Below, piece by piece: positions 3,716 to 57,488 of a stretch of 64,000 nucleotides of DNA; within the stretch, counting starts at the first letter, position 1; each line of letters begins with the position of its first letter. The stretch covers positions 1 to 64,000 of IMG/VR virus record IMGVR_UViG_3300025840_000032; one strand, written 5' to 3'. The stretch is from a virus. The notes beneath the pieces are model-generated. The model searched no databases. It was not told the origin of the DNA and saw only the letters and a list, made by a program, of their open reading frames with translations. The translations under genes were made by a program, and so were the position numbers.

Positions 3716-3958
3716 TCAACGTTTTTGTGTAGATTCTTTGAGAATGTTTGCAATACGAGGGTTGATGAATTTACATACAGTTTCATCCATCTTTGACTTA
3801 CCTGCAGATTGTAACGCTATAGCTACTGATTGTTTCTGAGCTTTCTTTTTCGATTGAGGTTTACTAGTACCTATCTTACCGTCGTCCTTATAGGATCCCA
3901 TAAGCTCCTTAATGTTCTTCCTAATAATCTTATCTGTTTTTCCTTTTTTAAGCGGCAT
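3716..3958 (-). CDS. Small basic protein (MPLKKGK.. family)
   Basis: 80 residues, Lys-rich, with an N-terminal MPLKKGKTDKIIRKNIKELM and a central QSVAIALQSAGKSKM. This is a widespread small phage protein (the DUF6496-like pattern of MPLKKGKS plus QAVAIALSKAGKS). Function unknown; the charge suggests nucleic-acid contact. It overlaps the end of the upstream gene by 11 nt. Confidence 0.75.
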   Translation of the reverse strand: MPLKKGKTDKIIRKNIKELMGSYKDDGKIGTSKPQSKKKAQKQSVAIALQSAGKSKMDETVCKFINPRIANILKESTQKR

Positions 3959-4403
3959 GTGTTAAAACTTTCTTGTAAAGGTTGGTAATATCTGTGTCGG
4001 ATAATCCTGCTTGCTTTAAATATAATTCAATATCATTTATATTATCCGTATTTTTAATTTGGGTAATTTCTTTATTATCAAGTTGTTCAGATAGTTTTTT
4101 GATAACAAATTTTTTAAAAACTTCAATAGCTTTTGGTTTATTTGGTGTTATAACTGGTTCTTTAATATCGTAAATACCAGGCATGGAACCACCAGGCATT
4201 AAAACCTTAAGCATTGGAGGTATGCCGTTGATCATTGGTCCTCCACAAGCTTCGCTAGTCAATTCATGAAGAATAAATCCTTCATAACTATCACTCTCTT
4301 CAAAACCTGCATTTAATGTTGGATCTACTTTGAACCGGATATATCTTAACCCTTTACCCTTAAGGCAGTCGGTCAAAATCTCATCAAAGTTTTTCATTTT
4401 CAT
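3948..4403 (-). CDS. Hypothetical late protein with N-terminal tag
   Basis: 151 residues, unknown family. Starts MKMKNFDEILTDCL, one of the tagged N-termini found on many late genes here. The centre is Gly/Pro-rich (GGPMINGIPPMLKVLMPGG) and the C-terminal third is Lys/Asp-rich and probably helical. Preceded by a late box (ATTAAATA on the minus strand, 4416-4409) exactly 5 nt before the ATG. Possibly a virion or packaged protein. Confidence 0.65.
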   Translation of the reverse strand: MKMKNFDEILTDCLKGKGLRYIRFKVDPTLNAGFEESDSYEGFILHELTSEACGGPMINGIPPMLKVLMPGGSMPGIYDIKEPVITPNKPKAIEVFKKFVIKKLSEQLDNKEITQIKNTDNINDIELYLKQAGLSDTDITNLYKKVLTHAA

Positions 4404-4408
4404 GATAA

Positions 4409-4416
4409 TATTTAAT
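4409..4416 (-). promoter_or_regulatory. Late promoter box
   Basis: ATTAAATA on the minus strand, 5 nt before the ATG at 4403; same spacing as the boxes of the tail genes. Confidence 0.55.
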
Positions 4417-4426
4417 CAAAATCGTA

Positions 4427-4454
4427 TTGATTATAATTGTCGTGCGCGTATAAT
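4427..4454 (+). promoter_or_regulatory. Early promoter of folE
   Basis: TTGATT (4427-4432), 16-nt spacer, TATAAT (4449-4454), 8 nt to the folE ATG. Confidence 0.75.
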
Positions 4455-4462
4455 TAATACAT

Positions 4463-5107
4463 ATGAATAATAATCGCGGAAAAGAATTTTTGTTACCGGT
4501 AGCTAATAGCTCAGTTCACCTTACAGATGAGAAAAAACTACAGATTATCGATAATGCAGCTGAAGCTTATGAAAAATTTCTGGATGCACTTGGATTTGAT
4601 TGGAGAGCTGATCCAAATTCAAATAATACCCCTAAACGTGTTGCAAAATCATTTGTTAATGATTTGATTTCTGGTTGTTATGCAGAACCCCCACGAATTA
4701 CATCATTTCCAGCCGATGGGTATGATGGGATTATAGCTCAAACAAATATCCCAGTTAAAAGTTTGTGTAGTCATCATCATTTAAATTTTACCGGGAAAGC
4801 TCATGTAGCTTATATACCTTCATTGAATGGGAGGGTTATTGGATTGAGTAAGCTTAATCGAATTGTTGAATATTATGCGCGAAGACCTCAAGTGCAAGAA
4901 TCACTTACTATGCAAATTGCTAATGCAATCAATGAAAGTTGTGAACAGAATAAAGGTGTTGCGGTTGTTCTTGAATGTACCCATACTTGTGCTTGCCTCA
5001 GAGGTGTTAAACATGACGGGTGTGTTATGAAAACCTCCAAATTAACCGGGGATTTCATGTATGATCGTGGTACCCGCCAAGAGTTTTATGAATTTATCCG
5101 AGGGTAA
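4463..5107 (+). CDS. folE: GTP cyclohydrolase I
   Basis: Opens GTP to dihydroneopterin triphosphate, the first step toward preQ0 (and folate). The 214-residue protein has [13 protein letters not shown], the zinc segment [39 protein letters not shown] and the second zinc Cys in [11 protein letters not shown]. Full length for the bacterial family. Its own early promoter lies directly upstream. Divergent from the queD/queE block, so the pathway is transcribed from at least two promoters. Confidence 0.93.
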
Positions 5108-5111: not shown

Positions 5112-5660
5112 ATGGCAGTTCAAGATAATTCATATTACGCATTTGAGAAAGCTATTTTAAAAGCGAGTACTCTCCGTGAAAAAAATTTGTATGGCCCGGC
5201 TAGTAAAGCTGCAGAGGATCCGGAAATTGGCATTGTTATTAAACAAAAACCAGCTTACTTCGTAATTAAAGATTGTGCTAATATTACAAAACGATATCTG
5301 TTTATTATGTGTTATGGATCATTAACTGATCCAATACAACAACTTAAAGGTACAGTAAATGCTAAAGATATTAAAGATTTTGTTAAGAGAAGTAAAAATA
5401 AAGATAATCCCGAAACACTTCAACTGCTAAAATTGGTTATTCATGATATTCAAAATTATATTACACCTCCAGATCCGGATATTCAAGAATTGGATATTAG
5501 TTTTGATATAATTGACGGGGAAAACGTTTATGGGGATTATGAGGAATTGAACAACGAACGGTTAATAGCAATTGAAAAAATTGAAGCCTTTCAAAAGGCA
5601 AGAATTGATTTAAATAACGAGAAAGCTGTGGTTGATCGATTAACCGAGATATTTGTTTAA
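5112..5660 (+). CDS. Hypothetical protein downstream of folE
   Basis: 182 residues starting MAVQDNSYYAFEKAI at the ATG 4 nt after the folE stop; the longer frame from 5061 overlaps folE and is not preferred. Acidic, with a long helical C-terminal segment rich in Glu, Lys and Asn. Co-transcribed with folE. No family recognised; probably an early accessory protein. Confidence 0.7.
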   Translation: MAVQDNSYYAFEKAILKASTLREKNLYGPASKAAEDPEIGIVIKQKPAYFVIKDCANITKRYLFIMCYGSLTDPIQQLKGTVNAKDIKDFVKRSKNKDNPETLQLLKLVIHDIQNYITPPDPDIQELDISFDIIDGENVYGDYEELNNERLIAIEKIEAFQKARIDLNNEKAVVDRLTEIFV

Positions 5661-6091
5661 TCCTCTTTATCAACATCGATGAGTTTGTCTATCTTTGAGA
5701 CAAACTCTTTCCCTATTAATACGGGGTATTCATTTTCACTTCTATCTGCTATTGAAAATGGTACGTCTGTGTATTTTTGATCATCAAAGATTATATCAAA
5801 TAATACAACCGGACGTTCTTCTTTATTTCCTGATCCAATATGGATTATAATTGTATCGACAATTTGTTTTTTAACACGTTTGTTATTTACAGTTGAGAAA
5901 ATTATGTTCTTTCCTCGGGTTTCAAAATTAACTCCATGTAACACGTTATAAGCTCCATTTCCAGAATCCACCTTTGCATCTACATCACCAATGTCTTTGA
6001 TTTTTATGGGTTCAACTAGACCGATAACATCATCATCAGTTGTTATTTCGTTTAGATAATATGTTCTATATATAGAGTTAAATGTTTTCAT
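5657..6091 (-). CDS. RimB/DUF785-like retropepsin-fold protein, tagged
   Basis: 144 residues. The segment AKVDSGNGAYNVLHG resembles the (R/K)xDTGA..S.LH motif of the ATP-dependent zinc protease/RimB (DUF785) family, with Asp in DSG as candidate catalytic residue. RPVVLFDIIFDD and IADRSENEYPVLIGKEFV match the family's later strand and its YPVLLGR motif. The first ~20 residues (MKTFNSIYRTYYLNE) are an added tag like those of other late genes. Starts in an ATGA overlap with the gene at 6088-6276. Activity unproven. Confidence 0.6.
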   Translation of the reverse strand: MKTFNSIYRTYYLNEITTDDDVIGLVEPIKIKDIGDVDAKVDSGNGAYNVLHGVNFETRGKNIIFSTVNNKRVKKQIVDTIIIHIGSGNKEERPVVLFDIIFDDQKYTDVPFSIADRSENEYPVLIGKEFVSKIDKLIDVDKED

Positions 6092-7021: not shown

Positions 7022-7052
7022 AGCCTACCATATATGGTAGGCTTATTTTTTC
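7022..7052. terminator. Bidirectional hairpin terminator
   Basis: AGCCTACC and GGTAGGCT arms around a short AT loop, followed by a T-run on the plus strand. It lies between the convergent ends of the barrel gene and the minus-strand late block. Confidence 0.8.
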
Positions 7053-7306
7053 TTCCAATTTACTCTTTTTGAACTTTTCTTTTGATACATCTTACCTTTA
7101 ATTGAATTACATGCTGATTTAGTTGGTCTACATGCTGGGTAACTTCCTCCGGATTTTTTAGATTTTCTGCCACACGGACCACCCGTTTTACAATTTACCC
7201 AACCAGAAAATTTCTTCCCGGTTTTTGGATCTTTACCACCACGTTTAAACCATTGATGTAAGTTATCTGAGGCTTCGTAAAATTGTTTAAAGTTTATATT
7301 ATTCAT
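7043..7306 (-). CDS. DUF5872-like Cys/Lys-rich small protein, tagged
   Basis: 87 residues. Tag-like start MNNINFKQFYEASDN, then FKRGGKDPKTGKKFSGWVNC, GGPCGRKSKK, YPACRPTKSAC and a Lys-rich end. The W-V-x-C, PCGR and YPxCRP blocks match DUF5872, a small family of phages and large viruses. Cysteines could bind metal. Overlaps the end of the virion gene by 8 nt, so co-expressed with it. Function unknown. Confidence 0.75.
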   Translation of the reverse strand: MNNINFKQFYEASDNLHQWFKRGGKDPKTGKKFSGWVNCKTGGPCGRKSKKSGGSYPACRPTKSACNSIKGKMYQKKSSKRVNWKKK

Positions 7307-8717: not shown

Positions 8718-8948
8718 TTACTTTTTCTTCCAGATTTTACCTTTTCTACACCGGACTATAGCCCCGGATTTATATGCAGATGTTTTATTTCCATATACAG
8801 AATCTGCTTTTCGTTTACACCTGTCTTCTGCATCTTCTGATTTGATTTTTTTTCTTTTCTTTGTATTGTCGTTTAATCCTGTTTCTATTTTTGTAGAACC
8901 ACTATAAACTTCAAGAATCCTGTTAATTTTATCGTTAAATATTTTCAT
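8718..8948 (-). CDS. Small Lys-rich phage protein, tagged
   Basis: 76 residues. Starts MKIFNDKINRILEVYSG (tag-like) and ends with CKRKADSVYGNKTSAYKSGA and VRCRKGKIWKKK, a block common to many small phage proteins. Very basic; possible nucleic-acid binding. Ends 3 nt before the virion gene, so same operon. Confidence 0.7.
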   Translation of the reverse strand: MKIFNDKINRILEVYSGSTKIETGLNDNTKKRKKIKSEDAEDRCKRKADSVYGNKTSAYKSGAIVRCRKGKIWKKK

Positions 8949-8957: not shown

Positions 8958-9260
8958 TTACCAATTTTGACATGAGGCGTGACGAGCAGTACCTGGTTTA
9001 GCTGTTGAACATTTATGTCTAGCTCTAAAGCTTTTACGACGTTTAGGGTTACTCTTTTTAATGCGCAGATTAGGGTCTCCGTAGTGTATCCGTTTGTATC
9101 CCTTACCGGAAGGGTTTTTAACACACTTCATATATTTCTTATTTTTAAGGTAGGAGCTGGCTTGTTTTGTTGCTTTTGTACATCTAGCTCCTTTTTTCTC
9201 CAATATTTTAAAAAAATCAATATCTTCTTGTAAAAGATTGTATAAAGAATTAAAATCCAT
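8958..9260 (-). CDS. Small basic protein with ARHKC motif, tagged
   Basis: 100 residues. Tag-like start MDFNSLYNLLQEDIDFF; then a basic region with GYKRIHYGDPNLRIKK and KSFRARHKCSTAKPGTARH, a conserved block of small phage and large-virus proteins. The conserved Cys/His residues could coordinate metal. If the tag is cleaved after the Glu (LLQE), the mature product would be a ~85-residue basic protein. Divergent from the late gene at 9283. Confidence 0.7.
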   Translation of the reverse strand: MDFNSLYNLLQEDIDFFKILEKKGARCTKATKQASSYLKNKKYMKCVKNPSGKGYKRIHYGDPNLRIKKSNPKRRKSFRARHKCSTAKPGTARHASCQNW

Positions 9261-9736: not shown

Positions 9737-10339
9737 TTACTCTAAATTCTTTAAAATATTGTATACCGACATCACTACATTCCGGTTGTCTTTAAATTCA
9801 TCTGGAATGTAAGGCATTAATTTTTCTATCGTCAAATCGTCTAATATCTCACGGAAATCCGTAGCACTTAACTTGGATCCAGGCTCTCCAGGTGTCATTG
9901 GTGCTTCACTTATATTAAACGTTACCCCTTCTGGTGTGTATTTATCTGCCATGGCAAATCGCTTTGCATCATCCCCAACACCTCCAACCCCTAATAATAC
10001 CTGATCACCCGGGTTGGTTTGTTCCTTTAAAAAATCTAAAACATACTTAACTGGTTGAGGGTTAACTATTACTTGAACATTTTTAAGTGGTAATTTATCA
10101 ATATACTGTTCTAATACTTCAGCAGCTTTCTTTCCAGTAACCTTTTTACCTGCTGGAGTCTTTCTTGCACTCTTTTCAGATGGTTCACTTACTATAACAT
10201 ATAAATCATCAACCTGATCTGCAAAATATTTGATGTTGTTGAAATGCCCTTTATGTGGTGGTTTAAATGATCCAGGAAATAACCCAATCTTTCGTCCAGT
10301 TTGTTCTTTTAAATAGAAATCTTTAAATGTCTTGGCCAT
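9737..10339 (-). CDS. HxGH-type nucleotidyltransferase, tagged
   Basis: 200 residues. After the tag-like MAKTFKDFYLKEQTGRK comes IGLFPGSFKPPHKGHFNNI, the (T/H)xGH active site of the cytidylyltransferase/NMN-adenylyltransferase superfamily, and later GSKLSATDFREIL, matching the ISxTxxR nucleotide-binding motif. Such enzymes transfer AMP or CMP to a phosphate acceptor (NMN, phosphopantetheine, glycerol-P); the substrate here is unknown. Last gene of the 15.3-9.7 kb late operon with a ligase-like and a nuclease-like protein. Confidence 0.8.
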   Translation of the reverse strand: MAKTFKDFYLKEQTGRKIGLFPGSFKPPHKGHFNNIKYFADQVDDLYVIVSEPSEKSARKTPAGKKVTGKKAAEVLEQYIDKLPLKNVQVIVNPQPVKYVLDFLKEQTNPGDQVLLGVGGVGDDAKRFAMADKYTPEGVTFNISEAPMTPGEPGSKLSATDFREILDDLTIEKLMPYIPDEFKDNRNVVMSVYNILKNLE

Positions 10340-11616: not shown

Positions 11617-13011
11617 TTATCTTCGATTATATCCAGATCCACCGGGATCTTTCATACTTCTAGGATTGTTAAAATATGACGAGAAATCCATCTTACCACC
11701 ACCGTAATTTACCATCGGAGCTGATTGATCATCTTCTTCACTAGCAGCTAATTTTTGTCTAGCTGGTGATGCAAAGGCACCTCCCATACCATCAACAATA
11801 AAATCTCCAGTGATTTTAATTGAATTTGGATTACCGTGGGCATCTTTACCATAATCTTGATCAGTTATAACTATACCTTCATGCGATGATGTATCTCCGT
11901 ATTTATCTGTTGTATAGTTATTAAGAACTTCATTACCTAAAACTCGAGTAATATGATACGTTAACGCTCCATTGACTGCGGTTTGAATATCTTCTTCCTT
12001 ATATACTTCATCTAATGGTTGCTGACCATTTAAAACTGTCATGTAATTGTTCTTACTAACAGCTCCTAAAATTTTACCATCCAATGTTTGAATCTTATCA
12101 GTTTTAGGTATTTTTACCATCCGGTTAAACCATTGATCTAGTGGTTGTTCAACGGTTTCATTACGTGAATAAACCACGGTAAATGGTTGACCTAAAACGT
12201 GTTCAAAATTAACTACACCACGTTTTGTAACATATATCCCGGTAATCACATCAAAACCAAATTCTTCTGCAAAGGGTTTTACCTTTTCTCTGAGGGATTC
12301 TAATACTTCAGGATCGAATTGAATTTTTCTAGATACTGTTTTATCTATTACCATTTTACCAGAAACAGGGTCTTTATAAGTTGACGGTTTAAGGCCCGGT
12401 CTAGTTTCTTCACCTTGTCGATTTCGCTTTTGATAAAACTGATTAACACCATGAAATGCTATTAATTTAGCTGACCCATAATCGACGACATTTTCTTTAC
12501 CATCGATATATTCAGTATTAATAAATTTTGTTGGATCGGTATATAATCCTAGATCCATTAATTCATCTTTTATTGAAGGTAATGCTGCATTCATAATCTC
12601 CAATATCATTTTACCTTTACGAATCATCCCATGAGCTTTACCAGTTACTGGGTCGGGTTGAAATCTAGTTTGAAGATTATCGATGGTTATACCCCTAACA
12701 TCAATTTCTTTTTGTGAACCACGATCTAATGCAAATTGTTTTGGATTATTTGGATCGTGTTCGTCGCCAACTACCTTTAATGATAGGTTCACACCATCTA
12801 ATTTAACGGTTGCGGTTCCGTGGTCTAATTTTTCAACTGCATCATAAAATGTAGAAACGATATCATCAAGAGTTTTAACAGATGGTACATCAAACGGGTG
12901 CCACATATGCCCTCCCGCTCCGCCGGAAAGTAATAATTGTTCATCGGTTTGTTGTAATGTACCGATTTTATACAAGTTAAAAATATTATCGTTTTCGTTT
13001 AATAATTTCAT
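11617..13011 (-). CDS. ATP-dependent ligase-like nucleotidyltransferase
   Basis: 464 residues. TATVKLDGVNLSLK carries the KxDG motif I (Lys as AMP acceptor) of covalent nucleotidyltransferases. EYIDGKENVVDYG and KLIAFHG resemble motif III, SSHEGIVI is motif IV and SIKITGDFIV fits motif V (K-x-K, partly changed). This places it with DNA/RNA ligases, without a recognised OB domain. Tag-like N-terminus MKLLNENDNIFNLYKI. Ends with a Gly/Asn-rich tail. Starts 4 nt inside the nuclease-like gene. Substrate unknown. Confidence 0.7.
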   Translation of the reverse strand: MKLLNENDNIFNLYKIGTLQQTDEQLLLSGGAGGHMWHPFDVPSVKTLDDIVSTFYDAVEKLDHGTATVKLDGVNLSLKVVGDEHDPNNPKQFALDRGSQKEIDVRGITIDNLQTRFQPDPVTGKAHGMIRKGKMILEIMNAALPSIKDELMDLGLYTDPTKFINTEYIDGKENVVDYGSAKLIAFHGVNQFYQKRNRQGEETRPGLKPSTYKDPVSGKMVIDKTVSRKIQFDPEVLESLREKVKPFAEEFGFDVITGIYVTKRGVVNFEHVLGQPFTVVYSRNETVEQPLDQWFNRMVKIPKTDKIQTLDGKILGAVSKNNYMTVLNGQQPLDEVYKEEDIQTAVNGALTYHITRVLGNEVLNNYTTDKYGDTSSHEGIVITDQDYGKDAHGNPNSIKITGDFIVDGMGGAFASPARQKLAASEEDDQSAPMVNYGGGKMDFSSYFNNPRSMKDPGGSGYNRR

Positions 13012-14459: not shown

Positions 14460-14828
14460 TTAATAGTCTATATCTGGATCGTCGGAATATGTTGAAATAT
14501 ACCGTTTTATCTTTGATAACATTTCGCGACCGTTTTCTTCATTAATCTCTCCTTCTAAAATTTCACTTGGAATATCCCCATCAGTATTAATTTGTAATGC
14601 TTTCCTAATCAACCGGATTAATTCAACTTCACCTTCGGATGATAATTGTTGTACTTCAGGTTCTCCTTGGGGTTCAGCAGGGGGTTGAGGGGGCATAGGA
14701 TCGATAGGTTCGCCTGGTTGCTGAGGCATTTGAGCTGGATTGAACAACGGGTTAGGTCCTTGTTCATTAATCGCTTGGTGTCTAGAGTTCACCAGTTTAA
14801 AAAATTTGCTTTTAGTTGAAACGTTCAT
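14460..14828 (-). CDS. Pro/Gln-rich small late protein
   Basis: 122 residues. N-terminal ~22 residues contain FFKLVNSRHQAINEQ (tag-like), followed by a Pro/Gln/Glu linker of ~40 residues and a C-terminal helical part with EGEVELIRLIRKALQI. No family recognised. Sits 3 nt upstream of the nuclease-like gene in the same operon. Confidence 0.65.
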   Translation of the reverse strand: MNVSTKSKFFKLVNSRHQAINEQGPNPLFNPAQMPQQPGEPIDPMPPQPPAEPQGEPEVQQLSSEGEVELIRLIRKALQINTDGDIPSEILEGEINEENGREMLSKIKRYISTYSDDPDIDY

Positions 14829-14833: not shown

Positions 14834-15295
14834 TTAAGATTGTAAAGCTTTCTTGAGGTTATTAGTATTGTCTTCATACTTTTTGACAGCTAATTTACTA
14901 ACATTTACCCTATTTTTTACTGCTCTATTAGCCTGATATGCTGATGTACCGACACCAAACGCACCTAATTGTTTAGTGGGTTTTTGAGCTAACCGTTCAA
15001 CTGCGTCATCAACATCATATTTGCTGCTAGAATCCTTTGAGCCTCTACCTGTAATAGCAAATTCGTCTTCATCCTCAGCTGAAGGAGTTGGATTTTTAAT
15101 GAGTTCATTAACTTTAAAATAGGTTCTAATTAAATTCTTGTACACGTCTGGGTTTTCATCGTGAGTAATTTTGGATGATGCAAATTCCAATACAACCGAA
15201 ATTTTTTCTAATAAATCTTTACTGATTTGTACTTTATCGGAGGTATCAGATACATATTTCTCAAACCCTTCGTTGATGGCTTGGTCAAATTTCAT
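14834..15295 (-). CDS. Hypothetical late protein, tagged; operon head
   Basis: 153 residues starting MKFDQAINEGFEKYV. Mostly helical, with an acidic centre (SAEDEDEF) and a basic C-terminal third. First gene of the late operon that runs down to 9737, with a late box exactly 5 nt before the ATG. Function unknown. Confidence 0.65.
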   Translation of the reverse strand: MKFDQAINEGFEKYVSDTSDKVQISKDLLEKISVVLEFASSKITHDENPDVYKNLIRTYFKVNELIKNPTPSAEDEDEFAITGRGSKDSSSKYDVDDAVERLAQKPTKQLGAFGVGTSAYQANRAVKNRVNVSKLAVKKYEDNTNNLKKALQS

Positions 15296-16655: not shown

Positions 16656-16847
16656 TTATTTTTTCTTCAATCTCTTCTTTTTCTTTTTATTCCGTCGTTG
16701 AACAGACCCTAAAGCTTTTGGAGCTCTATAATCACCAGTTGCATATGAATCACTAGAAAACTGTCCTGATGAAAAATCTCCAAATACACCACCAGTACCA
16801 GCCGTCATGTCTTCATCTAAAATCTTTTTAAAAAATTTGTTAAACAT
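16656..16847 (-). CDS. Small tagged protein with Lys-rich tail
   Basis: 63 residues: MFNKFFKKILDEDMTAGTGG, then VFGDFSSGQFSSDSYATGD, APKALGSVQRRNK and a poly-Lys end. This layout (DEDMTAGTGGVFG..YATGD..RRN) recurs in T4-like marine phages as a small unannotated protein. The start is one of the clearest examples of the shared N-terminal tag. Divergent from the uvsY-like gene. Confidence 0.75.
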   Translation of the reverse strand: MFNKFFKKILDEDMTAGTGGVFGDFSSGQFSSDSYATGDYRAPKALGSVQRRNKKKKKRLKKK

Positions 16848-21314: not shown

Positions 21315-21938
21315 GTGGAATTCAACCAATTAGTAAAATTACTTGAACAAGACGAATCAATCTTCAAACCAAGAAAGACTGAAGGTAGAAGAGAACGGTT
21401 TAATCAAATAATTCAACGTCAAATACAAGACTATATCAAGAACGGATCTAAAGGTGATTTAAGTTTACCCGGAACACCAATTACATCGTTACCAGATAAT
21501 TTAAAGTATGTAGGTGGTATTTTAGACCTTTCGAATACATTAATTACATCATTACCTGCTGGATTAAAGGTTGGTGGTTGTTGTTTAGATCTTTCACGTA
21601 CACCAATTACAACGTTACCGGATAATTTAACGGTTGTTGGAAATTTATATGTTGATCGTACGCAAATTACATCATTACCGGGTAATTTAAAGGTTGGTGG
21701 TTTATATATTCACGACACACAAATTGCATCATTACCAGACAATTTATCGGTTGATGAATTGGATGCTCATTCAACTCTAATACAGGAATTCCCGGATAGT
21801 TTGAAAATTAGAAATTGGCTAGATATCAGAAACACACCACTAGCAGAAAAATATAGAAAAGGTGTATTAACACTAGCTCAAAGATTAGAACAATTTAAAA
21901 AAACATACCCGGGAGTTAATGGGCAGATTTACCTATGA
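21315..21938 (+). CDS. LRR protein with packaging-type tag (paralogue 1)
   Basis: 207 residues, GTG start. N-terminus MEFNQLVKLLEQDESIFKPR, then a helical linker, then ~6 leucine-rich repeats of about 20 residues (ITSLPDNLKxVGGxLxL..TxI), then a short cap ending NGQIYL. The repeats predict a curved LRR solenoid for protein binding; no catalytic motif. Four more full paralogues lie at 21935, 23713, 24309 and 34100. Overlaps the next paralogue by 4 nt (ATGA). Target unknown. Confidence 0.8.
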   Translation: MEFNQLVKLLEQDESIFKPRKTEGRRERFNQIIQRQIQDYIKNGSKGDLSLPGTPITSLPDNLKYVGGILDLSNTLITSLPAGLKVGGCCLDLSRTPITTLPDNLTVVGNLYVDRTQITSLPGNLKVGGLYIHDTQIASLPDNLSVDELDAHSTLIQEFPDSLKIRNWLDIRNTPLAEKYRKGVLTLAQRLEQFKKTYPGVNGQIYL

Positions 21939-21984
21939 AATTTCAAGATTTAACAACATTACTTGAACAAGATGAATCGATCTT
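21935..21984 (+). repeat. LRR-gene 5' direct repeat, copy 1
   Basis: First ~50 nt of paralogue 2, almost identical in DNA to 23713-23762 and 24309-24358, while downstream DNA has diverged. Shows recent duplication or conversion of the tag-encoding end. Confidence 0.85.
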
Positions 21985-22654
21985 TAAGCCAAGACGGGTT
22001 GAAGATCGACTAGAACGTCAACAGCAAGAACAACTACGGCAAGTGTATGACTATATTAAGAACGGTTCTAGAGGTGATTTAGATTTAAGAAAAACCGTAC
22101 TTACCACTTTACCAGAAGGGTTACATATAGGCGACAGTTTAATGTTATTGGGATCAAAAATCACACACTTACCGGATGATATTAAAATTAATGGTGTGTT
22201 ATATTTAGCAAAATCACAAATTACACGTTTGCCGGATAATTTAAAAATAGATGATTTGGTGTTATCTATGACACAAAATATTACTCAACTACCTCGTGGA
22301 TTATCAGTTAATCGGAGAATTTTATGCGATTATTCACGCATAACATATATTCCTGATGATATACAGGTGGGTGAAGAGCTGAATTTGATGAAAACACCGA
22401 TTGAACATCTCCCGGATAATTTAACAGTAGATAAACTGAATATCAATTACACAAGAATTAAATCTTTACCTAACAATTTAACAGCGGATTTTGTTTCAGC
22501 TAGTATGAGTTATATCAACCATATACCACCGAACAATAAAATTAAAAGGTTAATTATCTATAACACTTTATTAAGTAAAGACCCAGATATAATGTCTGCT
22601 AGAAGTGGTGAACACAACCCTAAATATCCAAATATTGGTACAATATATTATTAA
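21935..22654 (+). CDS. LRR protein with tag (paralogue 2)
   Basis: 239 residues, start in ATGA overlap with paralogue 1. The N-terminus MKFQDLTTLLEQDESIFKPR is nearly identical to paralogues 3 and 4, while its repeats (LPDDIKINGVLYLAKSQIT and so on, ~8 units) have diverged strongly, as expected if the tag is constrained and the binding face varies. Ends convergent with the HtrL-like gene (4-nt overlap). Confidence 0.8.
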   Translation: MKFQDLTTLLEQDESIFKPRRVEDRLERQQQEQLRQVYDYIKNGSRGDLDLRKTVLTTLPEGLHIGDSLMLLGSKITHLPDDIKINGVLYLAKSQITRLPDNLKIDDLVLSMTQNITQLPRGLSVNRRILCDYSRITYIPDDIQVGEELNLMKTPIEHLPDNLTVDKLNINYTRIKSLPNNLTADFVSASMSYINHIPPNNKIKRLIIYNTLLSKDPDIMSARSGEHNPKYPNIGTIYY

Positions 22655-23661: not shown

Positions 23662-23702
23662 CAATAACCTATTTAGCGTATATTAATTAAGAATCTACCA
23701 TA

Positions 23703-23710: not shown

Positions 23711-23712
23711 TA

Positions 23713-23762
23713 GTGAAATTTCAAGACTTAACAACATTACTTGAACAAGATGAATCGATCTT
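23713..23762 (+). repeat. LRR-gene 5' direct repeat, copy 2
   Basis: Near-identical to 21935-21984 and 24309-24358; encodes the N-terminal tag. Confidence 0.85.
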
Positions 23763-24312
23763 CATACCAAGAAATCTAGACACCCGGCAAGATCGTTATG
23801 AGCAACAAATTCAACAGCAAATTCAACACTACATTAAAAATGGGTCTAAGGGGAAATTATATTTATCCTATAAACCAATTAAATCGTTACCAGATAATTT
23901 AAAGTATGTAGGTGGTACTTTATATCTCGTCAAAACCAAAATTAAATCACTACCGGAAAATTTGACAGTTAGGGGTAATTTAGAGCTAGACGGAACACAA
24001 ATTGAATCATTACCAGCTGGGTTAAAAGTTTATGGAGCATTATTTATGAACTTCACTCACCTTAAATCATTACCACCGGGATTTGAAATAGGTAACGGAT
24101 TATATATCAAACATACACCAATTACGTCATTACCAGCTGGTCTAAGGGTTGGAGGTAATTTCGACCTTCGGGGATCACAAATTGAATCATTACCAGCTGA
24201 TTTATATGTTAGAAACTGGTTAGATATCAAGGATACACCACTAGCAAAAAAATACACGGTAGAACAATTAAAAAAGATGTTACCTGACGTTGGAGGGGAA
24301 ATATATATATGA
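23713..24312 (+). CDS. LRR protein with tag (paralogue 3)
   Basis: 199 residues, GTG start. Tag MKFQDLTTLLEQDESIFIPR, linker with DRYEQQIQQQIQHYIKNG, then ~6 repeats of the LPxNLxVxGxLxLxxTxI type and a cap ending GGEIYI. Preceded by a CATAAATA late box and overlapping paralogue 4 by 4 nt (ATGA). Same domain plan as paralogue 1, with which it shares the IKSLPDNLKYVGGxL repeat. Confidence 0.82.
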   Translation: MKFQDLTTLLEQDESIFIPRNLDTRQDRYEQQIQQQIQHYIKNGSKGKLYLSYKPIKSLPDNLKYVGGTLYLVKTKIKSLPENLTVRGNLELDGTQIESLPAGLKVYGALFMNFTHLKSLPPGFEIGNGLYIKHTPITSLPAGLRVGGNFDLRGSQIESLPADLYVRNWLDIKDTPLAKKYTVEQLKKMLPDVGGEIYI

Positions 24313-24358
24313 AATTTCAAGACTTAACAACATTACTTGAACAAGATGAATCTATCTT
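24309..24358 (+). repeat. LRR-gene 5' direct repeat, copy 3
   Basis: Near-identical to 21935-21984 and 23713-23762. A degenerate fourth start (ATGAAATTTACACATGAG) follows the last LRR stop at 24784. Confidence 0.8.
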
Positions 24359-38451: not shown

Positions 38452-39246
38452 ATGAGTACAACTAAAGCTGTTATGCCATTTTCTGGTGGAATGGATTCAT
38501 CAGTAATGTTAAGAATGGTACAATTCCACCATGATGAAATCCATTTAATTACATTTGATTACGGTCAAAGACATATCCGGGAAATTGAGTGTGCTAAAAG
38601 ACAAATTGAACAAGCTAAATTAATTGCATTTAGCCGAGGTCGATTTAGTGAATCAATTATTCACAAAATTATTGATGTTTCATTCATAAAAGATATTGCT
38701 CCAACTAGTTCACTTACAAATCTGAATATTGATAACCCGGATGTTAAGGATATGGTTGGAGAAGCTCAACCTGTAAGTTATGTACCATTTAGAAATCAAT
38801 TGTTTCTTTCAATTGCATGTGCTTATGCAGAGGGTATTGGTGCTAATACCGTTTATCATGGGGCTACTAAAGTTGATAGTTTAGCAGGGTATTGGGACGG
38901 TAGTCCAGAATTCTTGGATGCGCTTAATCAGCTTGTTGCTCTCAATAGGAAAAATCAAATCAATGTAGTGTGTCCACTGCTTGCTTACGATAAGAGAGAC
39001 ATTGTTCTCCAAGGTATTAAATCACATGTAGATTTCGCAAACACCTATACGTGTTATAGTGGGGATGAAATAGCTAGTGTAACCACACCAAGTTCATCAT
39101 TAAGAATCAAAGGATTTGCAGAAGCTGGTTATATTGACCCACAACCATATAAAGAAAATTTAAAGGATTTTTGGGAAAAACATAATTGTAAGCCTTGCCC
39201 AACAAATCCTTTATACACTAAAGAAGGAACACGAGGAGCTTATTAA
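38452..39246 (+). CDS. queC: QueC, preQ0 synthase
   Basis: 264 residues. PP-loop SGGMDSS at residues 11-17, THY-type signature FDYGQRHIREIECAK, then VPFRNQLFLSIACAYAEG and YWDGSPEFLDALNQL. QueC amidates 7-carboxy-7-deazaguanine to preQ0. The zinc loop is unusual: TYTCYSGDE has its Cys, then about 40 inserted residues, then CKPC; one of the usual four Cys is not seen. Completes folE-queD-queE. A class II amidotransferase gene lies 560 nt downstream. Confidence 0.88.
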   Translation: MSTTKAVMPFSGGMDSSVMLRMVQFHHDEIHLITFDYGQRHIREIECAKRQIEQAKLIAFSRGRFSESIIHKIIDVSFIKDIAPTSSLTNLNIDNPDVKDMVGEAQPVSYVPFRNQLFLSIACAYAEGIGANTVYHGATKVDSLAGYWDGSPEFLDALNQLVALNRKNQINVVCPLLAYDKRDIVLQGIKSHVDFANTYTCYSGDEIASVTTPSSSLRIKGFAEAGYIDPQPYKENLKDFWEKHNCKPCPTNPLYTKEGTRGAY

Positions 39247-39788
39247 TAATCTTCAAAATCATCTTCTACACCATATTCCGTATCTAACATAGCTGTAGGT
39301 TCAATTGAATCTACAGGTCCTTCTGTATAGTCAGTGGAATCTCCGTCAGATTCAAAATATTCATCCAATAATCCACTAACAACCATATCTTCTACAACCT
39401 TTTTTGCCATATCCTTATCAATATATTCAGAGGCAAAAGCTATAATTTCTTTACTAGTTGCTGGTTCAGTTTCAACATATCTAATAATATCCTTTTGAAC
39501 ACCTTTTAATGGAACATTATATGCATTTTCACCAGGTTTAAATGTTCTTCCAGTTAATTTAACTTTTTGGCTAGTTTTTTCTTTTCTGGCTCGGGTTTCT
39601 CTTGATCTGGGACCCTCTCCTTTACCTTTTAACCTCATCATCATTTCATAATATGATTCTGTACGTTTTTCACCAGTGTTAGGATCCGTTATCTCTTTTC
39701 TTACACGTTCACCGTATTTTTTCTTCCGGCCTTCTTCAAGAGATTGGATATATGATTCAAAAAGAAATTGATTATCGCGGTCTTTCAT
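39243..39788 (-). CDS. Tagged protein with winged-helix-like C-terminus
   Basis: 181 residues. Start MKDRDNQFLFESYIQSLEEG is tag-like. A basic middle (Lys/Arg/Gly/Glu) is followed by KGVQKDIIRYVETEPATSKE and KKVVEDMVVSGLLDEYFE, which reads like a winged-helix domain, and an acidic tail. Late box TATAAATA 7 nt upstream. Candidate packaged DNA-binding protein; function unknown. Lies antisense between queC and the amidotransferase gene. Confidence 0.6.
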   Translation of the reverse strand: MKDRDNQFLFESYIQSLEEGRKKKYGERVRKEITDPNTGEKRTESYYEMMMRLKGKGEGPRSRETRARKEKTSQKVKLTGRTFKPGENAYNVPLKGVQKDIIRYVETEPATSKEIIAFASEYIDKDMAKKVVEDMVVSGLLDEYFESDGDSTDYTEGPVDSIEPTAMLDTEYGVEDDFEDY

Positions 39789-50731: not shown

Positions 50732-51772
50732 ATGATTTTACCTGAAGCTTACATTGTACAAAAATTTTATCAATATGCAGGTAAACCGAAGTATAATACT
50801 TTAGCTAAAACGTACCAAGGATCTTGCCCTATTTGTAGAGAAGGTAAATCTTGGGGTAGAAAACAAAGATTATTTTATATTGTTACAGATAATTACCTTC
50901 ATTGCCATAATTGTGGCGGGCATTGGTCACCACTTAATTGGATAAAAGAGGTTTCTGGGTTATCTGCCAAAGAAATCTACAACGAATCAGAAGAATATGA
51001 TGTAATTCCATCAGATATATCAAATAAACCACAGATTCAAGACACCGTCCAACGAATTCTTACCGGATCATTACCGGATGATTGTATTAATTTATTCAAT
51101 TCAACGCAAACAAGTTATTATCAGTCAAATCCTGTTGTACAAACGTGTTTATCCTATATCAAAAATAGAAAACTTGATGTAGCAATCAACAAACCAAAAG
51201 CTTTATATGTTACACTTAAAGACTTTACCCACAAAAACCGATTAATCATACCATTTTACGATAGTTCTGGTAAAATTATCTTTTATCAGAGTAGGGATTT
51301 AGGTATAACCCCAAATTCTTTACCGAAATACGTAGGAAAGGTTGGAGGACATCGGAGTGTGTTCAATATCAACCAAATAGATGAAAATATCAACCAAATA
51401 TACATTTTAGAAGGGCCAATTGACGCATTTTTCATAAAAAACGGTATAGCATTAGCGGGAATCAATGATCACACAGCTGGAAACCTATTTACATCATTAC
51501 AACAACAACAATTTCAAAAATTTCCCTTACATAAAAAGGTATTTGTATTAGATTCCCAGTGGTTAGATAAGACATCATACCGGACATCGAAGGTTTTATT
51601 GAATAATGGCTGTAATATATTTATTTGGCCAAAGAAATTCGGTAAAAAGTTCAAAGATTTGAACGAAATGTGTGTAAGATTAAACATCAACAAAGTGCCG
51701 GAAACCTTTATAAATGAGAACACCTATAAAGGTTTACCGGGTATAATAAAACTAACTCAAATCAGCCATTAA
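50732..51772 (+). CDS. 61: gp61 DNA primase
   Basis: 346 residues (T4 gp61 is 342). Zinc ribbon Cys32-x2-Cys35 (SCPICREGKS) and Cys58-x2-Cys61 (HCHNCGGHW), then a Toprim domain with QIYILEGPIDAFFIKNGI and VFVLDSQW. Makes lagging-strand primers with gp41. Own early promoter. Convergent with a late gene (4-nt overlap). Confidence 0.92.
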   Translation: MILPEAYIVQKFYQYAGKPKYNTLAKTYQGSCPICREGKSWGRKQRLFYIVTDNYLHCHNCGGHWSPLNWIKEVSGLSAKEIYNESEEYDVIPSDISNKPQIQDTVQRILTGSLPDDCINLFNSTQTSYYQSNPVVQTCLSYIKNRKLDVAINKPKALYVTLKDFTHKNRLIIPFYDSSGKIIFYQSRDLGITPNSLPKYVGKVGGHRSVFNINQIDENINQIYILEGPIDAFFIKNGIALAGINDHTAGNLFTSLQQQQFQKFPLHKKVFVLDSQWLDKTSYRTSKVLLNNGCNIFIWPKKFGKKFKDLNEMCVRLNINKVPETFINENTYKGLPGIIKLTQISH

Positions 51773-52164
51773 ATATTAGCTGAGTGTAAATAGCCCTTAA
51801 AATTTTGCACTAAAGCACTTAAATCCATTGCAACACGAGCAATTTTCTTCGTTTCAGCGCTAGCAATTTTATCAAATAATGTATCGCATGATGCATCATG
51901 TAATTGGGTTTGAATTGATCCAGACTCTCCATTAAGAAATGATACAAAATTATCCATTTCATCAATCCATTTGGTAAGTTCTTTAGCTTGAGCTGCATCA
52001 TTTGCTTTGGCTAACTGTTCTGGTGATTGTTGGGGGGCATCAACCTTAAGATCATCACCAGAAAGACCGTCGCCCAATTGGGTTTCCATAGCTTCGGCAT
52101 CGGTCAACCCTAGGGTTTCATCTTGTTCTAATAAGGTTTTAAAACGTTTCTTAAAAAAGCTCAT
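51769..52164 (-). CDS. Tagged late protein, head-type candidate
   Basis: 131 residues. Start MSFFKKRFKTLLEQDETLGL shares LLEQDE with the LRR proteins. The C-terminal two thirds, ELTKWIDEMDNFVSFLNG and KKIARVAMDLSALVQNFKG, is helical and recurs in unannotated T4-like phage proteins. Late box ATTAAATA 5 nt upstream. Possibly an internal or core head protein. Confidence 0.65.
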   Translation of the reverse strand: MSFFKKRFKTLLEQDETLGLTDAEAMETQLGDGLSGDDLKVDAPQQSPEQLAKANDAAQAKELTKWIDEMDNFVSFLNGESGSIQTQLHDASCDTLFDKIASAETKKIARVAMDLSALVQNFKGYLHSANI

Positions 52165-53988: not shown

Positions 53989-54809
53989 GGTCCAAATAAT
54001 CCTGTTTCGGGGGTTTCGGTGTTACCATAACCTCCGTAGACATTATCATAATCAAATCCTGAGTAGTCAAAAATAACTTTAGATAATTCTTCAACATTCC
54101 CATCATAACTCTTTGGAGCAGATCGATCGCTAGTGCCGCCATCTAAATATCCAGAAAATTTATCATCATAAACTTGATCACTTCCACCTTCAGCACTTAA
54201 TCCAGGCTCAAAACTATAATCATATCGTTTTGCTTTTATTTGCCATACATAATGACCCATCAATGGATTAATACGAGCAACATCTTCATCTAATCGCTCA
54301 GTCACTTCAAATTTCTTCCCGGTTCTTGGATATGGTCTATCGGATCCAAACTCAGATAACTCAATGATATCTCCCGCTTTTGGTTCTTCCAACCAACCAA
54401 ACGTATTATAAAATGCACTTATATGAATAAACGCTGTAAATTCATCTCCAGAATCAAAACCATATTTTTGTAATATAACTGCATTTTCTTGCAATTCAGC
54501 GGCAATAATAATCTGTTGTGGATTAACAAAAACTTTTGTAGGTTCTTCACCGTAAATGTTACCAGGCCCACCACCAGCTATACCATCAGCTGATAATGTA
54601 TTATATGGGTTTTGCCAATATGTAACACGTTGACCATAAAGACAAATTAATTCAAACCAATAATTGGAGATTAATATCCGTTCACAATTATTATTACTTT
54701 TATCGGTAAATCTAAAACATGGGTTGCAGTTTTTAGGTGCTGGATAAATTGACCCATCAGAATTCCCCGGTAAAATCGTATTTGTTCCTGTATACCATGC
54801 TAATGACAT
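53985..54809 (-). CDS. 14: Neck protein, gp14-like
   Basis: 274 residues (T4 gp14 is 256). ELICLYGQRVTYWQNPYN, GEEPTKVFV, a strand-rich centre with GFDSGDEFTAFIHISAF, then PKAGDIIELSEFG..GKKFEVTERLDED and VWQIKAKRYDYSFEPG. This follows the layout of T4-like gp14 (EGDLIFLP...FEIN...QLGKLYVYKLQCERFEYSNE). Joins head and tail. Assignment by pattern, not alignment. Confidence 0.6.
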   Translation of the reverse strand: MSLAWYTGTNTILPGNSDGSIYPAPKNCNPCFRFTDKSNNNCERILISNYWFELICLYGQRVTYWQNPYNTLSADGIAGGGPGNIYGEEPTKVFVNPQQIIIAAELQENAVILQKYGFDSGDEFTAFIHISAFYNTFGWLEEPKAGDIIELSEFGSDRPYPRTGKKFEVTERLDEDVARINPLMGHYVWQIKAKRYDYSFEPGLSAEGGSDQVYDDKFSGYLDGGTSDRSAPKSYDGNVEELSKVIFDYSGFDYDNVYGGYGNTETPETGLFGP

Positions 54810-55843
54810 TAGTTTAGATAATCTCCTTTATTCTTTTTTGTTCTCATTAAATAAAACCTTCCAGATGGTTTCATTCCAAGAGCGACTCCGGATTTTTTTA
54901 ATCCTTTCGGCCGGTTTAAATTTTGTACTCCAAAATGTTTTGCTAACTTATACGCATCTTGAGGATTTATAAATAAAAATTTCGGTCCCCCAGGTCTTTG
55001 CATTACTTTAAAACAGTTTGGTAAATGTAAATCTGTCTCTAAATATTTTGGAACTGTTCTTGCATGTTTTCTTGTTCCTGGATCACGAACAACGGCATGT
55101 TGTTGTCTATGATTTGTTTTAGTTGTATTAAAAAGAGATTCGGATAAGTGTAGATCATATGATTTGTTCACCAAATTTAACAATTTTTCTAAATAATCTG
55201 TATTTCTCAAAAATTTGAAGACCATATTACCTACAGAAAATTCACCAATATCATCTAACCCCTCATCACGTTGTTTTTTAATTTTCTTAAACAATTTCTT
55301 ACCATATTCATGTAATTGAAGTAATTTAGATTTATGATCCGCAAATCTATCCACAAGTTCATATAAACAGTCAATATCATCTTTAAATGCACTTACCTTA
55401 GCTTTAATATCTTCATCGTTTAACGAAGGTGGGTTATATTCAGGTTTGACCACCCACTTATTATTGGATACCGAGTATAAACCAGAGGATACATGAGGCT
55501 CATTAACGTCCTGGACATATATTTCAACATCATGCCCTTTTAATGTAATATCATGTTTTGTATTCCAAACAAATCTTAATCCGTTAAAGGCTTGTTTAAC
55601 TAAATCTAAATTTTCATTTACTTCTTGAAAATCTAATAAAATATGTAAGTCAATATCGCTATAGTTAGTGTAATTATAATTCGCAATACTACCTGTTAAT
55701 TGAATATCATCAATTTTTGGTATCTTAAAATCGATAGTAGCTAAAAAATCGTCAGCAATCGTTAATAATTTCTTACGAATTTCTGGTTTGAGCTTGTTTT
55801 TATCGAAAAATTTAGGATTTAAATTTTCGTTATATATTCTCAC
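54809..55843 (-). CDS. Pol-beta-like (MNT) nucleotidyltransferase fold protein
   Basis: 344 residues, GTG start 5 nt after a late box. QLTGSIANYNYTNYSDIDLHILLDF is the GSxA...(S)DxD motif of the polymerase-beta nucleotidyltransferase superfamily; a third Asp could be in HDVEIYVQD. The C-terminal half is basic, with HRQQHAVVRDPGTRKHARTV, and may be a separate domain. Family members add nucleotides to proteins, RNA or drugs, and include antitoxins. Candidate packaged effector. Shares one base with the neck gene end. Confidence 0.7.
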   Translation of the reverse strand: MRIYNENLNPKFFDKNKLKPEIRKKLLTIADDFLATIDFKIPKIDDIQLTGSIANYNYTNYSDIDLHILLDFQEVNENLDLVKQAFNGLRFVWNTKHDITLKGHDVEIYVQDVNEPHVSSGLYSVSNNKWVVKPEYNPPSLNDEDIKAKVSAFKDDIDCLYELVDRFADHKSKLLQLHEYGKKLFKKIKKQRDEGLDDIGEFSVGNMVFKFLRNTDYLEKLLNLVNKSYDLHLSESLFNTTKTNHRQQHAVVRDPGTRKHARTVPKYLETDLHLPNCFKVMQRPGGPKFLFINPQDAYKLAKHFGVQNLNRPKGLKKSGVALGMKPSGRFYLMRTKKNKGDYLN

Positions 55844-55848
55844 AATTA

Positions 55849-55856
55849 TATTTATG
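55849..55856 (-). promoter_or_regulatory. Late promoter box
   Basis: CATAAATA on the minus strand, 5 nt before the GTG at 55843, directly after the T-run of the terminator at 55858-55885. Confidence 0.75.
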
Positions 55857-55857
55857 C

Positions 55858-55885
55858 AAAAAAAATGCCTGCGTAAACAGGCATT
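55858..55885 (-). terminator. Rho-independent terminator
   Basis: On the minus strand AATGCCTG and CAGGCATT arms around a 6-nt loop, followed by a run of 8 T. Ends the unit of the two MNRKKDL genes. Confidence 0.85.
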
Positions 55886-55914
55886 GTTGATTTAATTTGA
55901 TTTAAGATAACTGG

Positions 55915-56919
55915 TTAGCTATTCTTCTGGATGAACTCTTGGTTACCTCCTTTGACCTTGCTATTTACAACATTAGCGCGGCCTTTTGGAGATGTTGGTT
56001 GACCTTTTCGTTGTCCTGTAATTGGAGTACCGAGATCACCGTCATTACCAACTTTGTCAGTAACTTTACCATCACCACCTTTACTTCCAACACTAGAGGT
56101 ATGAGCTGTCTTTACAACGTTGTCTTTACCAGATGGTTTTGCTGGGTTACCTTTCTTCTGGTTATGTAAAGGATGTCCAAGATCTTCAGCTTCAATTTCT
56201 TCTCCGAAATAATTGAACTCTTCATCTTCGTCTTCAGCATCCTTATCGGCGTCGTCTTCTTCCATTTCTTCGAAATCCCCACCACCGTCGTCTTCACCGA
56301 AATCATCTCCTTCAACATCAAGGTCTTCTTCACCACCGAGGTCTTCCTCGCTGTCAAGAACTCCCATTAACGCATCGTGAAGTTTTTGTGCTAAATCTCT
56401 ATCAATAGATATCGTAACTTGATCTTCAGATTCACCCATGTCGTCAGCTATGTCATCATCGCCTTCACCGACACCAAGCTCTACTGCGTCAAACTGTTCG
56501 TCATCCATTACTTCCTCATATAAACGATCAAAAATAGACTTATTCTTTGCCATACTAGTATTTATATTCTCTCTTGCAATTTTCTTGTTTTCAGCTTTGA
56601 AATATGTATCTGCACCAGCAGATGATGATTGTTTTACAGAATATGCATTATCATCTTTAATTTCTTCGTTTTCGGGATCCAATTTTGCACTTGCAAAATT
56701 ATCTGCTCCTTTTGGTCCAGAATTATCATGAACAAACCCTTTAGTCGTCTTATCATTACCAATTGGAATGTCTTTGATATTCTTGCATGCAGCTGCCCAT
56801 GTTTTATCTTTTGGCTTACCGGGCTTGATTTGCTGTTTAGCTGCTTTTAATCCTGGTGGGTTACCTAATACAGCTTCATATGCTTCTTCAATTTGAATTA
56901 AATCTTTTTTTCTGTTCAT
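55915..56919 (-). CDS. Acidic late protein, scaffold or core candidate
   Basis: 334 residues. Starts MNRKKDLIQIEEAYEAVLG, sharing MNRKKDL with the gene upstream. KNKSIFDRLYEEVMDDE (~residue 125) begins a very acidic stretch with VTISIDRDLAQKLHDALMG, and the C-terminus is Gly/Lys-rich with repeats of the type KKGNPAKPSGKDNVV and RKGQPTSPKGRANVV. Highly charged and low-complexity, as expected of prohead core or internal head proteins. Coupled to the upstream gene (ATGA). Confidence 0.65.
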   Translation of the reverse strand: MNRKKDLIQIEEAYEAVLGNPPGLKAAKQQIKPGKPKDKTWAAACKNIKDIPIGNDKTTKGFVHDNSGPKGADNFASAKLDPENEEIKDDNAYSVKQSSSAGADTYFKAENKKIARENINTSMAKNKSIFDRLYEEVMDDEQFDAVELGVGEGDDDIADDMGESEDQVTISIDRDLAQKLHDALMGVLDSEEDLGGEEDLDVEGDDFGEDDGGGDFEEMEEDDADKDAEDEDEEFNYFGEEIEAEDLGHPLHNQKKGNPAKPSGKDNVVKTAHTSSVGSKGGDGKVTDKVGNDGDLGTPITGQRKGQPTSPKGRANVVNSKVKGGNQEFIQKNS

Positions 56920-57488
56920 GATTTTCGAATATTTAAGTAACTTTCAGCTAATATTGACCAATCCCTATCAGCTTTTGAATGATAAGATTCTTTTTTAGGC
57001 TCTTGCTCATCTTGATCAAACCGATTGGCTGTTATACCTGAGGTCTCGTCGTCCATCGCTTCGTCTCCCCAGCCTTCCGGCTGTTGATTTGGTCCTAAAT
57101 CTTCATTATCCTCATAATTTTCAATAGGATCCATATTAAGTTCGCTATCTTGTAATTCTTGACCAAAACTACTAGATTCTTCACCTTCATCTAAATCCGC
57201 TAATGCAGATTCATAAGGTTGGCCATCAATACTACCATCTGCATCAATTCTCAATGTAACTTCAGCCTCTTCTCGACTACCCGGGCTGTTTTTACTCATA
57301 TGAATAACATTTTCAACCGGGTCAGCTACTGTTCGAATTTTATTAACGTGGTATCCTATACCTTCTAGCTTGTTAACCACCATTTTTTGAACATCCGTGA
57401 AAGTTTTAACATCATTTTCTTCATCTGCATCTAAAAAGGCAGATTCATAAAGTAAACCAATGTTCTCTAAATCTTTTTTACGATTCAT
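56916..57488 (-). CDS. Acidic late protein sharing MNRKKDL start
   Basis: 190 residues from the second ATG (57488), which lies 5 nt after the late box and matches the MNRKKDL start of the downstream gene; the first ATG at 57494 overlaps the box. A folded N-terminal half (VQKMVVNKLEGIGYHVNKIR) is followed by a long acidic tail. Probably an internal head or core component. Confidence 0.65.
   Translation of the reverse strand: MNRKKDLENIGLLYESAFLDADEENDVKTFTDVQKMVVNKLEGIGYHVNKIRTVADPVENVIHMSKNSPGSREEAEVTLRIDADGSIDGQPYESALADLDEGEESSSFGQELQDSELNMDPIENYEDNEDLGPNQQPEGWGDEAMDDETSGITANRFDQDEQEPKKESYHSKADRDWSILAESYLNIRKS

Follow-up and report, generated by a model that had tools for sequence, protein, structure and literature searches.

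Many otherwise unrelated proteins encoded in a 64,000-nucleotide stretch of viral DNA (positions 1 to 64,000 of the 64,456-base IMG/VR viral fragment IMGVR_UViG_3300025840_000032, GC 33%; hereafter the window) start with a similar short segment, or tag, which is very probably a T4-type capsid-targeting sequence that would be removed by a gp21-type protease and would load diverse enzymes into the head for ejection. The N-termini resemble each other; the resemblance is restricted to non-structural, mostly minus-strand genes; orthologues carry the tag in the T4 register, as do virion-detected enzymes of cyanophages; and the tag is associated with a gp21-type protease. The virus, described as a marine T4-like virus of bacteria, is on sequence grounds a T4-like phage. 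A first-pass annotation of the window had proposed a packaging and injection signal of this kind, and that proposal holds in part. There is good support for its core, namely that diverse late proteins bear a T4-like capsid-targeting tag, with orthologue tags in the exact T4 register (Phe 4, Phe/Tyr 7, a hydrophobic residue at 8 and Glu 10), and packaging by the window virus, binding to the prohead core, cleavage after the Glu and injection would follow by analogy with T4.

All nine N-termini quoted in that annotation were found at their places; for the gene at 35622, the ATG start is correct and the longer TTG start is not. Window proteins were compared pairwise by their first residues, with no preselected motif, after collapsing the paralogous leucine-rich repeat (LRR) proteins and leaving out one of the pair 55915/56916. 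The mean pairwise similarity of the minus-strand N-termini is far above that of segments from inside these proteins (z=+7.9) and also above that of composition-preserving shuffles (z=+4.6, 0 of 150 shuffles), compared to no such excess for the plus-strand N-termini, mostly of replication genes (z=-0.8 and +0.7, respectively). The T4 targeting pattern, defined as [FY]xx[FYLI][hydrophobic/T] starting at residues 2-12, was picked after the orthologues had been seen, though it corresponds to the published T4 targeting positions; it occurs in 13 of the 32 minus-strand proteins (internal rate 0.072, p=1.4e-7) versus 4 of the 48 plus-strand proteins (internal rate 0.115, p=0.82), one of the four being the retained LRR gene (Fisher p=7.5e-4 between strands). 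The annotation had itself named a tag no commoner in late than in early genes as grounds for giving up the idea, and these counts point the other way. Likewise, L/I-x-E lies within residues 5-20 of 16/33 minus-strand and 13/51 plus-strand proteins (p=0.027). The late structural genes gp17, gp18, gp19 and 7299 lack the tag, which is thus not a mere feature of late genes. Splitting the genes by the presence of a late box separates the tagged ones less well than splitting by strand, because many tagged genes are internal to operons. The GIY-YIG gene at 31424 was rejected as a tag carrier, its pattern match being due to chance.

In the orthologues and in cyanophage and IMG/VR relatives, the residues at the T4 positions (4, 7, 8 and Glu 10) are exact; the window tags have a shifted or longer spacing. 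In other phages, the conserved GLIE domain of the protease-like 5657-6091 family comes directly after MTSFKQFFVEK, MITFKQFYLEK, MKTFKQFFEK, MKSFKQFFEK, MIKFKQYFYEK or MNFKEFYIEK; close relatives have MNRSFNNIYRNYFLNE and MNKGFKTIYRNYFLNE there, with the clade form MxxFxxIYRNYFLNE. The FRARHxC C-terminal domain of the 8958-9260 family is joined to varied upstream regions that start with MKSFKRFLSED, MKTFKQYVDE, MEFNNLVEGILQ or MQFDDLVEKLLRE; among 53 distinct N-termini of this family, the core with Glu is most frequent at residue 4, which is the T4 register (13, compared to 0.10 at internal positions). In close relatives, the nucleotidyltransferase bears MLTFKDYFLKE and the ligase-like protein MNEQSLIFEKYLRVVNE, and L232, the orthologue of the nucleotidyltransferase-like protein at 54809-55843, bears MKTFSSYIKEA. 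The same conserved domains behind exchanged but equivalent tags show that the tag is a module. A register scan in relatives of the window gave 7 matches at residue 4 with Glu 10 versus a mean of 0.28 at internal positions, and the 197-kb IMG/VR phage G030 has five proteins with the exact tag at register 4 (versus 0.17), with almost none at other registers. IMG/VR was further scanned for open reading frames (ORFs) of at least 50 residues that start with MKxFxx[FY] behind a late box. Among the matches listed, hydrophobic residue 8 and Glu 10 are likewise found in 28 of 65 ORFs. The tagged ORFs come from roughly twelve unrelated families; a zeta-toxin-like kinase, a HAD phosphatase, a cytidylyltransferase and DUF6267 are among them. 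Residues 8 and 10 were compared here in place of T4-register versus shifted-register counts; the shifted control also held real tags with one inserted residue. Taken with the window tests, the orthologues reveal a short N-terminal segment common to otherwise unrelated proteins, as in a capsid-targeting sequence.

Head targeting in T4 depends on residues 4 and 7 of the IPIII leader, and processing on its residues 8 and 10; gp21 cleaves after L/I-x-E, and foreign proteins fused to the leader are packaged and delivered (PMC9026906). The capsid-targeting sequences of IPI, IPII, IPIII and Alt, such as MKTYQEFIAEA (IPII/IPIII) and MELITELFDE, share with the present tag the location in the N-terminal 10-19 residues, the aromatic or hydrophobic residues 4 and 7, the hydrophobic residue 8 and Glu 10 (in orthologues), the modular occurrence on unrelated proteins and the L/I-x-E after a hydrophobic pair. 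Unlike the T4 leaders, the tags of the window clade take the drifted forms MxFxxLxxLLEQDE, MxxFxxIYRNYFLNE and LIFExYLxxxNE, stand on many more types of cargo and are known here through their sequences. The gp23 cleavage site resembles the tag as well (AFGSFLTEA in T4, cut between Glu and Ala, and SGSFLAEA at the corresponding place in S-SCSM1). We propose that the amphipathic N-terminal stretch, consisting of an aromatic residue, two further residues, two hydrophobic residues and a Glu a few residues on, would bind the prohead scaffolding core during head assembly and thereby bring the attached protein into the prohead; the gp21-type S77 protease would then remove the tag by cutting after L/I-x-E, and the freed cargo would exit with the DNA at infection. 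An S77 prohead protease is encoded on 5 of 6 long tag-bearing contigs versus 3 of 19 untagged controls (p=0.0055). It is present in the relatives G006 and G019, and the window record stops short of that region.

Cyanophages provide virion proteomics for homologous proteins. S-CREM2 virions contain non-structural enzymes (PMC10665884), and the mass-spectrometry list of that report (Table 3) was compared with all 217 coding sequences of the phage: the T4-register tag occurs on 5 of the 52 virion proteins versus 1 of the 165 others (Fisher p=0.0033). The five are a SAM hydrolase (MKDFDSFLEE), a kinase (MKRFDAFLTE), a cytidylyltransferase (MKNFSSFLTE) and the hypothetical proteins ORF13 (MKDLHSFLTE) and ORF136 (MQTFSMFFSE). 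The Cas9-like virion protein (S-CREM2 ORF12, L062:7704-10313) has the tag core LRFASFMAEA at residues 17-26, behind the odd start MTSRWSNWSTGSDKKPLRFASFMAEA; a protein of S-CRM01 starts similarly with MRQSRWAKWSRGTEVKLSLDSFIKEAA, so the longer leader looks genuine. NMNAT was found in S-SCSM1 virions (PMC9602691), where it starts with MKSFLQFLKEA, and NMNAT-like genes start with MKSFSQFLTET in P-SSM2, MKSFGQFLTEA in S-SSM7 and MKLFNQFFKEA in S-CRM01. The S-CRM01 kinase starts with MISFDQFLSEK, and protein kinases are among the proteins reported from S-CRM01 virions (PMC10665884). The tagged virion NMNATs of S-CREM2 and S-SCSM1 share both the fold and the N-terminal tag with window protein 9737 and its orthologues, and window protein 54809-55843 is the orthologue of S-CREM2 ORF156, a virion protein by mass spectrometry.

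These lists do not give positions within the particle, amphipathic N-terminal helices can bind membranes, and several tagged genes lie close to structural genes. A signal for virion assembly or membrane association that takes the protein elsewhere than to the interior of the head (for example to the baseplate, the neck, the outer capsid or the host membrane) would accommodate all this, yet we consider it unlikely: the tag keeps the exact T4 register at the very residues that govern head targeting and processing in T4 (PMC9026906), it resembles the gp23 cleavage site and goes together with the gp21-type protease, and its cargo consists of soluble enzymes.

Several observations weigh against a T4-type capsid-targeting sequence. 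The genes gp21, gp22 and gp23 of the window virus lie outside the record, and virion detection concerns the cyanophage homologues. The S-CREM2 comparison rests on five positives, and its CsCl preparation does not place proteins inside the head (PMC10665884). A recognisable tag is missing from some virion proteins of cyanophages, for instance from S-CREM2 ORF156, and in S-SCSM1 an ORF at 44215 with the exact-register tag MKTFKQFMSES is not flagged as a virion protein. Pelagibacter phage HTVC008M, in which clear tags had been expected, lacks the strict tag and has MKTFxxF-like starts. Moreover, the window by itself shows no enrichment of the strict core, hydrophobic-x-x-hydrophobic-hydrophobic-x-E (3 observed versus 3.5 expected), and therefore the case in the window is carried by the pairwise and targeting-pattern tests together with the orthologues. 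A position-weight matrix built from the tags of T4 and S-CREM2 gave excess N-terminal matches in the window without a strand bias, owing to drift of the register and of the Glu position in this clade; de novo motif discovery by expectation maximisation on the tags gave output too noisy for use. The tag of this clade has drifted, the strict T4 form being too narrow for it. The lack of strict-core enrichment, and the paralogy of the five LRR genes, are what one would expect if the similarity came from a few hydrophobic residues held in common by chance or from one ancestral N-terminal duplication with no function. This is very improbable, since the tests remain significant with paralogues collapsed, the same domains bear different but equivalent tags in other phages and the tag is enriched among virion proteins; the orthologue data already contradict it.

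The late box was considered as another source of the similarity. Its core TAAATA lies 5-7 nucleotides ahead of the start codon in 19 of 24 occurrences in the window, for example at 59916, 62551, 51769, 34876, 8958, 14834 and 52198. T4 late transcripts begin a few nucleotides after TATAAATA; therefore, the late mRNAs of the window look nearly leaderless, and the late box looks to stand in place of a Shine-Dalgarno sequence. With such boxes close ahead of many starts in an AT-rich genome, nucleotide-level selection at the beginning of near-leaderless mRNAs (codons AAA, TTT and TTA) could imitate a protein signal. We regard this as scarcely credible, because gp17, gp18 and gp19 have the same late box but no tag, and identical tag residues are encoded by different codons, such as the TLLEQDE that 51769 has in common with the LRR tags, including that of 21935. 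In addition, residues and register are conserved in orthologues, and the same tag occurs in S-CREM2, whose GC content is 48% (PMC10665884).

The tag carriers and related genes are listed in Table 1. Out of the 15-20 tagged proteins first claimed, about 13-17 are credible and 11-13 have orthologue or strong sequence support; the regular expression offered for them, M-K-[FT]-x-x-[FILY]-x-x-[LY]-[LY]-x-E, is too loose and lumps distinct sub-forms. That carriers are mostly minus-strand late genes is borne out by the strand enrichment and several late boxes, but four of the five LRR genes lie on the plus strand. Nuclease-like cargo, also named in the annotation, was confirmed by no search. The ligase-like assignment of 11617 draws on the KxDG motif and tagged orthologues but lacks a Pfam match, and BLASTP of this protein against the DUF6267 protein L175 found no match.

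Table 1. Window proteins considered as tag carriers, with the N-termini of their orthologues.
Protein	Coordinates	Strand	N-terminus in window	Remarks	N-termini of orthologues
Retropepsin-like 'ATP-dependent zinc protease' domain protein	5657..6091	-	tag MKTFNSIYRTYYLNE at 6047-6091	PF05618, 3.5e-7; PDB 9g58, 6.7e-9	
Small basic Cys-containing protein	7043..7306	-	tag MNNINFKQFYEAS		MNFKQFYEAS (close); MTQKQLLENL (distant)
Small basic protein	8718..8948	-	weak tag MKIFNDKINRILE		MNTFNNKIEKLLEA (L556); IYEETLRE (G039)
Small basic FRARHxC-domain protein	8958..9260	-	tag MDFNSLYNLLQED at 9222-9260	late box TATAAATA ahead of start	
NMNAT/cytidylyltransferase-like protein	9737..10339	-	tag MAKTFKDFYLKEQ	late box; PF01467; enzyme domain from residue 16 (PDB 3nd5 alignment)	MLTFKDYFLKEQ; MITFKKFFLKEN (close)
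Ligase-like protein	11617..13011	-	MKLLNENDNIFNLYKIG, diverged or shortened tag	KLDG motif; own start site ambiguous	MNEQSLIFEKYLRVVNEGG
Small protein	14460..14828	-	MNVSTKSKFFKLVNSRHQAINE	targeting-pattern match	MKIKSKFFKIIKNKHYVLSEAAP
Protein of unknown fold	14834..15295	-	tag MKFDQAINEGFEKYV	late box	MKFDQALREGYNTYV; MNKFLKIIEE; MSKFLHLIEE
63-residue basic protein	16656..16847	-	tag MFNKFFKKILDED, exact core	then stretch like gp23 mature N-arm; match to gp23 of G039	MSTFKNIFLKLLDED; NEIANIYQQMLNED
LRR protein 1	21315..21938	+	tag MEFNQLVKLLEQDE at 21315-21356		
LRR protein 2	21935..22654	+	tag MKFQDLTTLLEQDE at 21935-21976		
LRR protein 3	23713..24312	+	tag MKFQDLTTLLEQDE at 23713-23754	box CATAAATA ahead of start	
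LRR protein 4	24309..24644	+	tag MKFQDLTTLLEQDE at 24309-24350		
LRR protein 5	34100..34879	-	tag MKFHDLALLVENDQ		
Protein of unknown fold	34876..35622	-	tag MTHDSYLIFEAYLNE at 35578-35622, exact core	late box TATAAATA	
Protein of unknown fold	39243..39788	-	tag-like MKDRDNQFLFESYIQSLEE	late box; targeting-pattern match	MDKDNKHLFESYLSLDE (similar N-terminus in relative G077)
Acidic protein	51769..52164	-	tag MSFFKKRFKTLLEQDE at 52117-52164	late box	MNYFEKQFRVLLEE; MKYQDRFILALEQD; MTKFKKNFILALRE
Nucleotidyltransferase-like protein (phrog_36119)	54809..55843	-	recognisable tag absent		
Protein upstream of gp17	55915..56919	-	third tag form LIQIEEAYEAVLGN	similar N-termini FNSLSEAYAAVYSN, LNDISKVYMEKV on S-SCSM1 virion proteins	LGEIYSDVFNKVVVTE; IGDLYGGMLN
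Protein upstream of gp17	56916..57494	-	third tag form LENIGLLYESAF		

The five LRR genes form two tandem pairs (21315-24644) and one distant copy (34100-34879), and among them the tag is conserved and the repeats vary. The relative contig L117 has tagged LRR paralogues too, with at least four LRR genes. LRR proteins are, to our knowledge, unusual for phages, and their tag makes them candidate head cargo. Divergently upstream of gp17, most relatives examined encode a conserved acidic and apparently disordered protein whose N-terminus contains an IGxxYxxML motif; two genes of this kind lie on the minus strand of the window, at 55915-57494.

Small basic proteins whose middle part mimics the mature N-arm of the phage's own gp23 were seen in the window (16656-16847, minus strand), S-CREM2 (ORF160), S-SCSM1 (93121-93306) and G039 (L378:14154-14390). 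In S-CREM2, GFTGAAAPEGPVAGYDP of ORF160 corresponds to GFTGAAAPGGPNAGFDP of gp23, and the window protein has DSYATGDYRAPK compared to GDTYAQGDARLPK in gp23 of G006. Those of S-CREM2 and S-SCSM1 are virion proteins, and the whole group might possibly be mimics or fillers of the capsid lattice.

The terminase (gp17) and polymerase (gp43) of the window match those of T4-like phages, which places the virus with the T4-type core; the sheath gp18, the tube gp19 and gp46/47 were assigned by ORF annotation and synteny only. The terminase shares 54% identity with a set of IMG/VR relatives and 33% with HTVC008M, its best isolate match. The genes gp20-gp24 fall outside the record, and L004, a contig of the same virus with an identical terminase, runs on into ribonucleotide reductase and not into head genes. 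The gp43 gene of the window (29919-33683) consists of two parts (29919-31445 and 32868-33683) with a minus-strand GIY-YIG-like ORF (31424-32269) between them, compared to one intact gene in the close relative L555 (12877-15465); the arrangement looks like a homing-endonuclease insertion or a split gene.

Loading of tagged proteins into heads has precedents. In T-even phages, multiple internal-protein genes have been recognised by their signal sequence since 1994 (Repoila et al. 1994, as cited in PMC12373910), and T4 Ip1-3 block type IV restriction enzymes (PMC12373910). They likewise are injected proteins found through a leader, but they are small inhibitors of enterobacterial T-even phages, compared to the mostly enzyme-like cargo of the marine T4-like phages here. 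The giant phages SPN3US and phiKZ have ejection proteins with prohead-protease propeptides, head cargo being cut after Glu by a diverged gp21-type protease (PMC9026906, PMC5694885); their head genes are not T4-like to this degree, and the likeness is drawn from published descriptions. In the text consulted, neither the S-CREM2 nor the S-SCSM1 report names a targeting signal for the proteins that it lists, and the hosts are cyanobacterial. Beyond the T4 review, no literature linking capsid targeting with cyanophages was found in a search of openly accessible papers.

Altogether, the principle is known, and the cargo and the tag variants are new. We lean towards the view that a general N-terminal "address code" by which enzymes are loaded into the head is common to the T4-supergroup phages, that the set of the window clade comprises expanded LRR, protease-like, nucleotidyltransferase, NMNAT-like and ligase-like proteins delivered at the first moment of infection, and that the form of the tag has co-evolved with the scaffold and protease of each lineage. 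Such a code would account for the recurrent NMNAT-like proteins, kinases, SAM hydrolase and Cas9-like nuclease in cyanophage virions. It would also allow proteins that are made beforehand and enter the cell together with the DNA to be recognised by a rule on their sequence; without it, only virion proteomics of phages in culture can identify them. The protein cargo of a phage is thus probably predictable from its genome; if the code holds, the complete complement of injected proteins could be predicted from the genomes of uncultured phages, and in uncultured marine phages it points to candidate effectors of the first wave, the LRR proteins among them.

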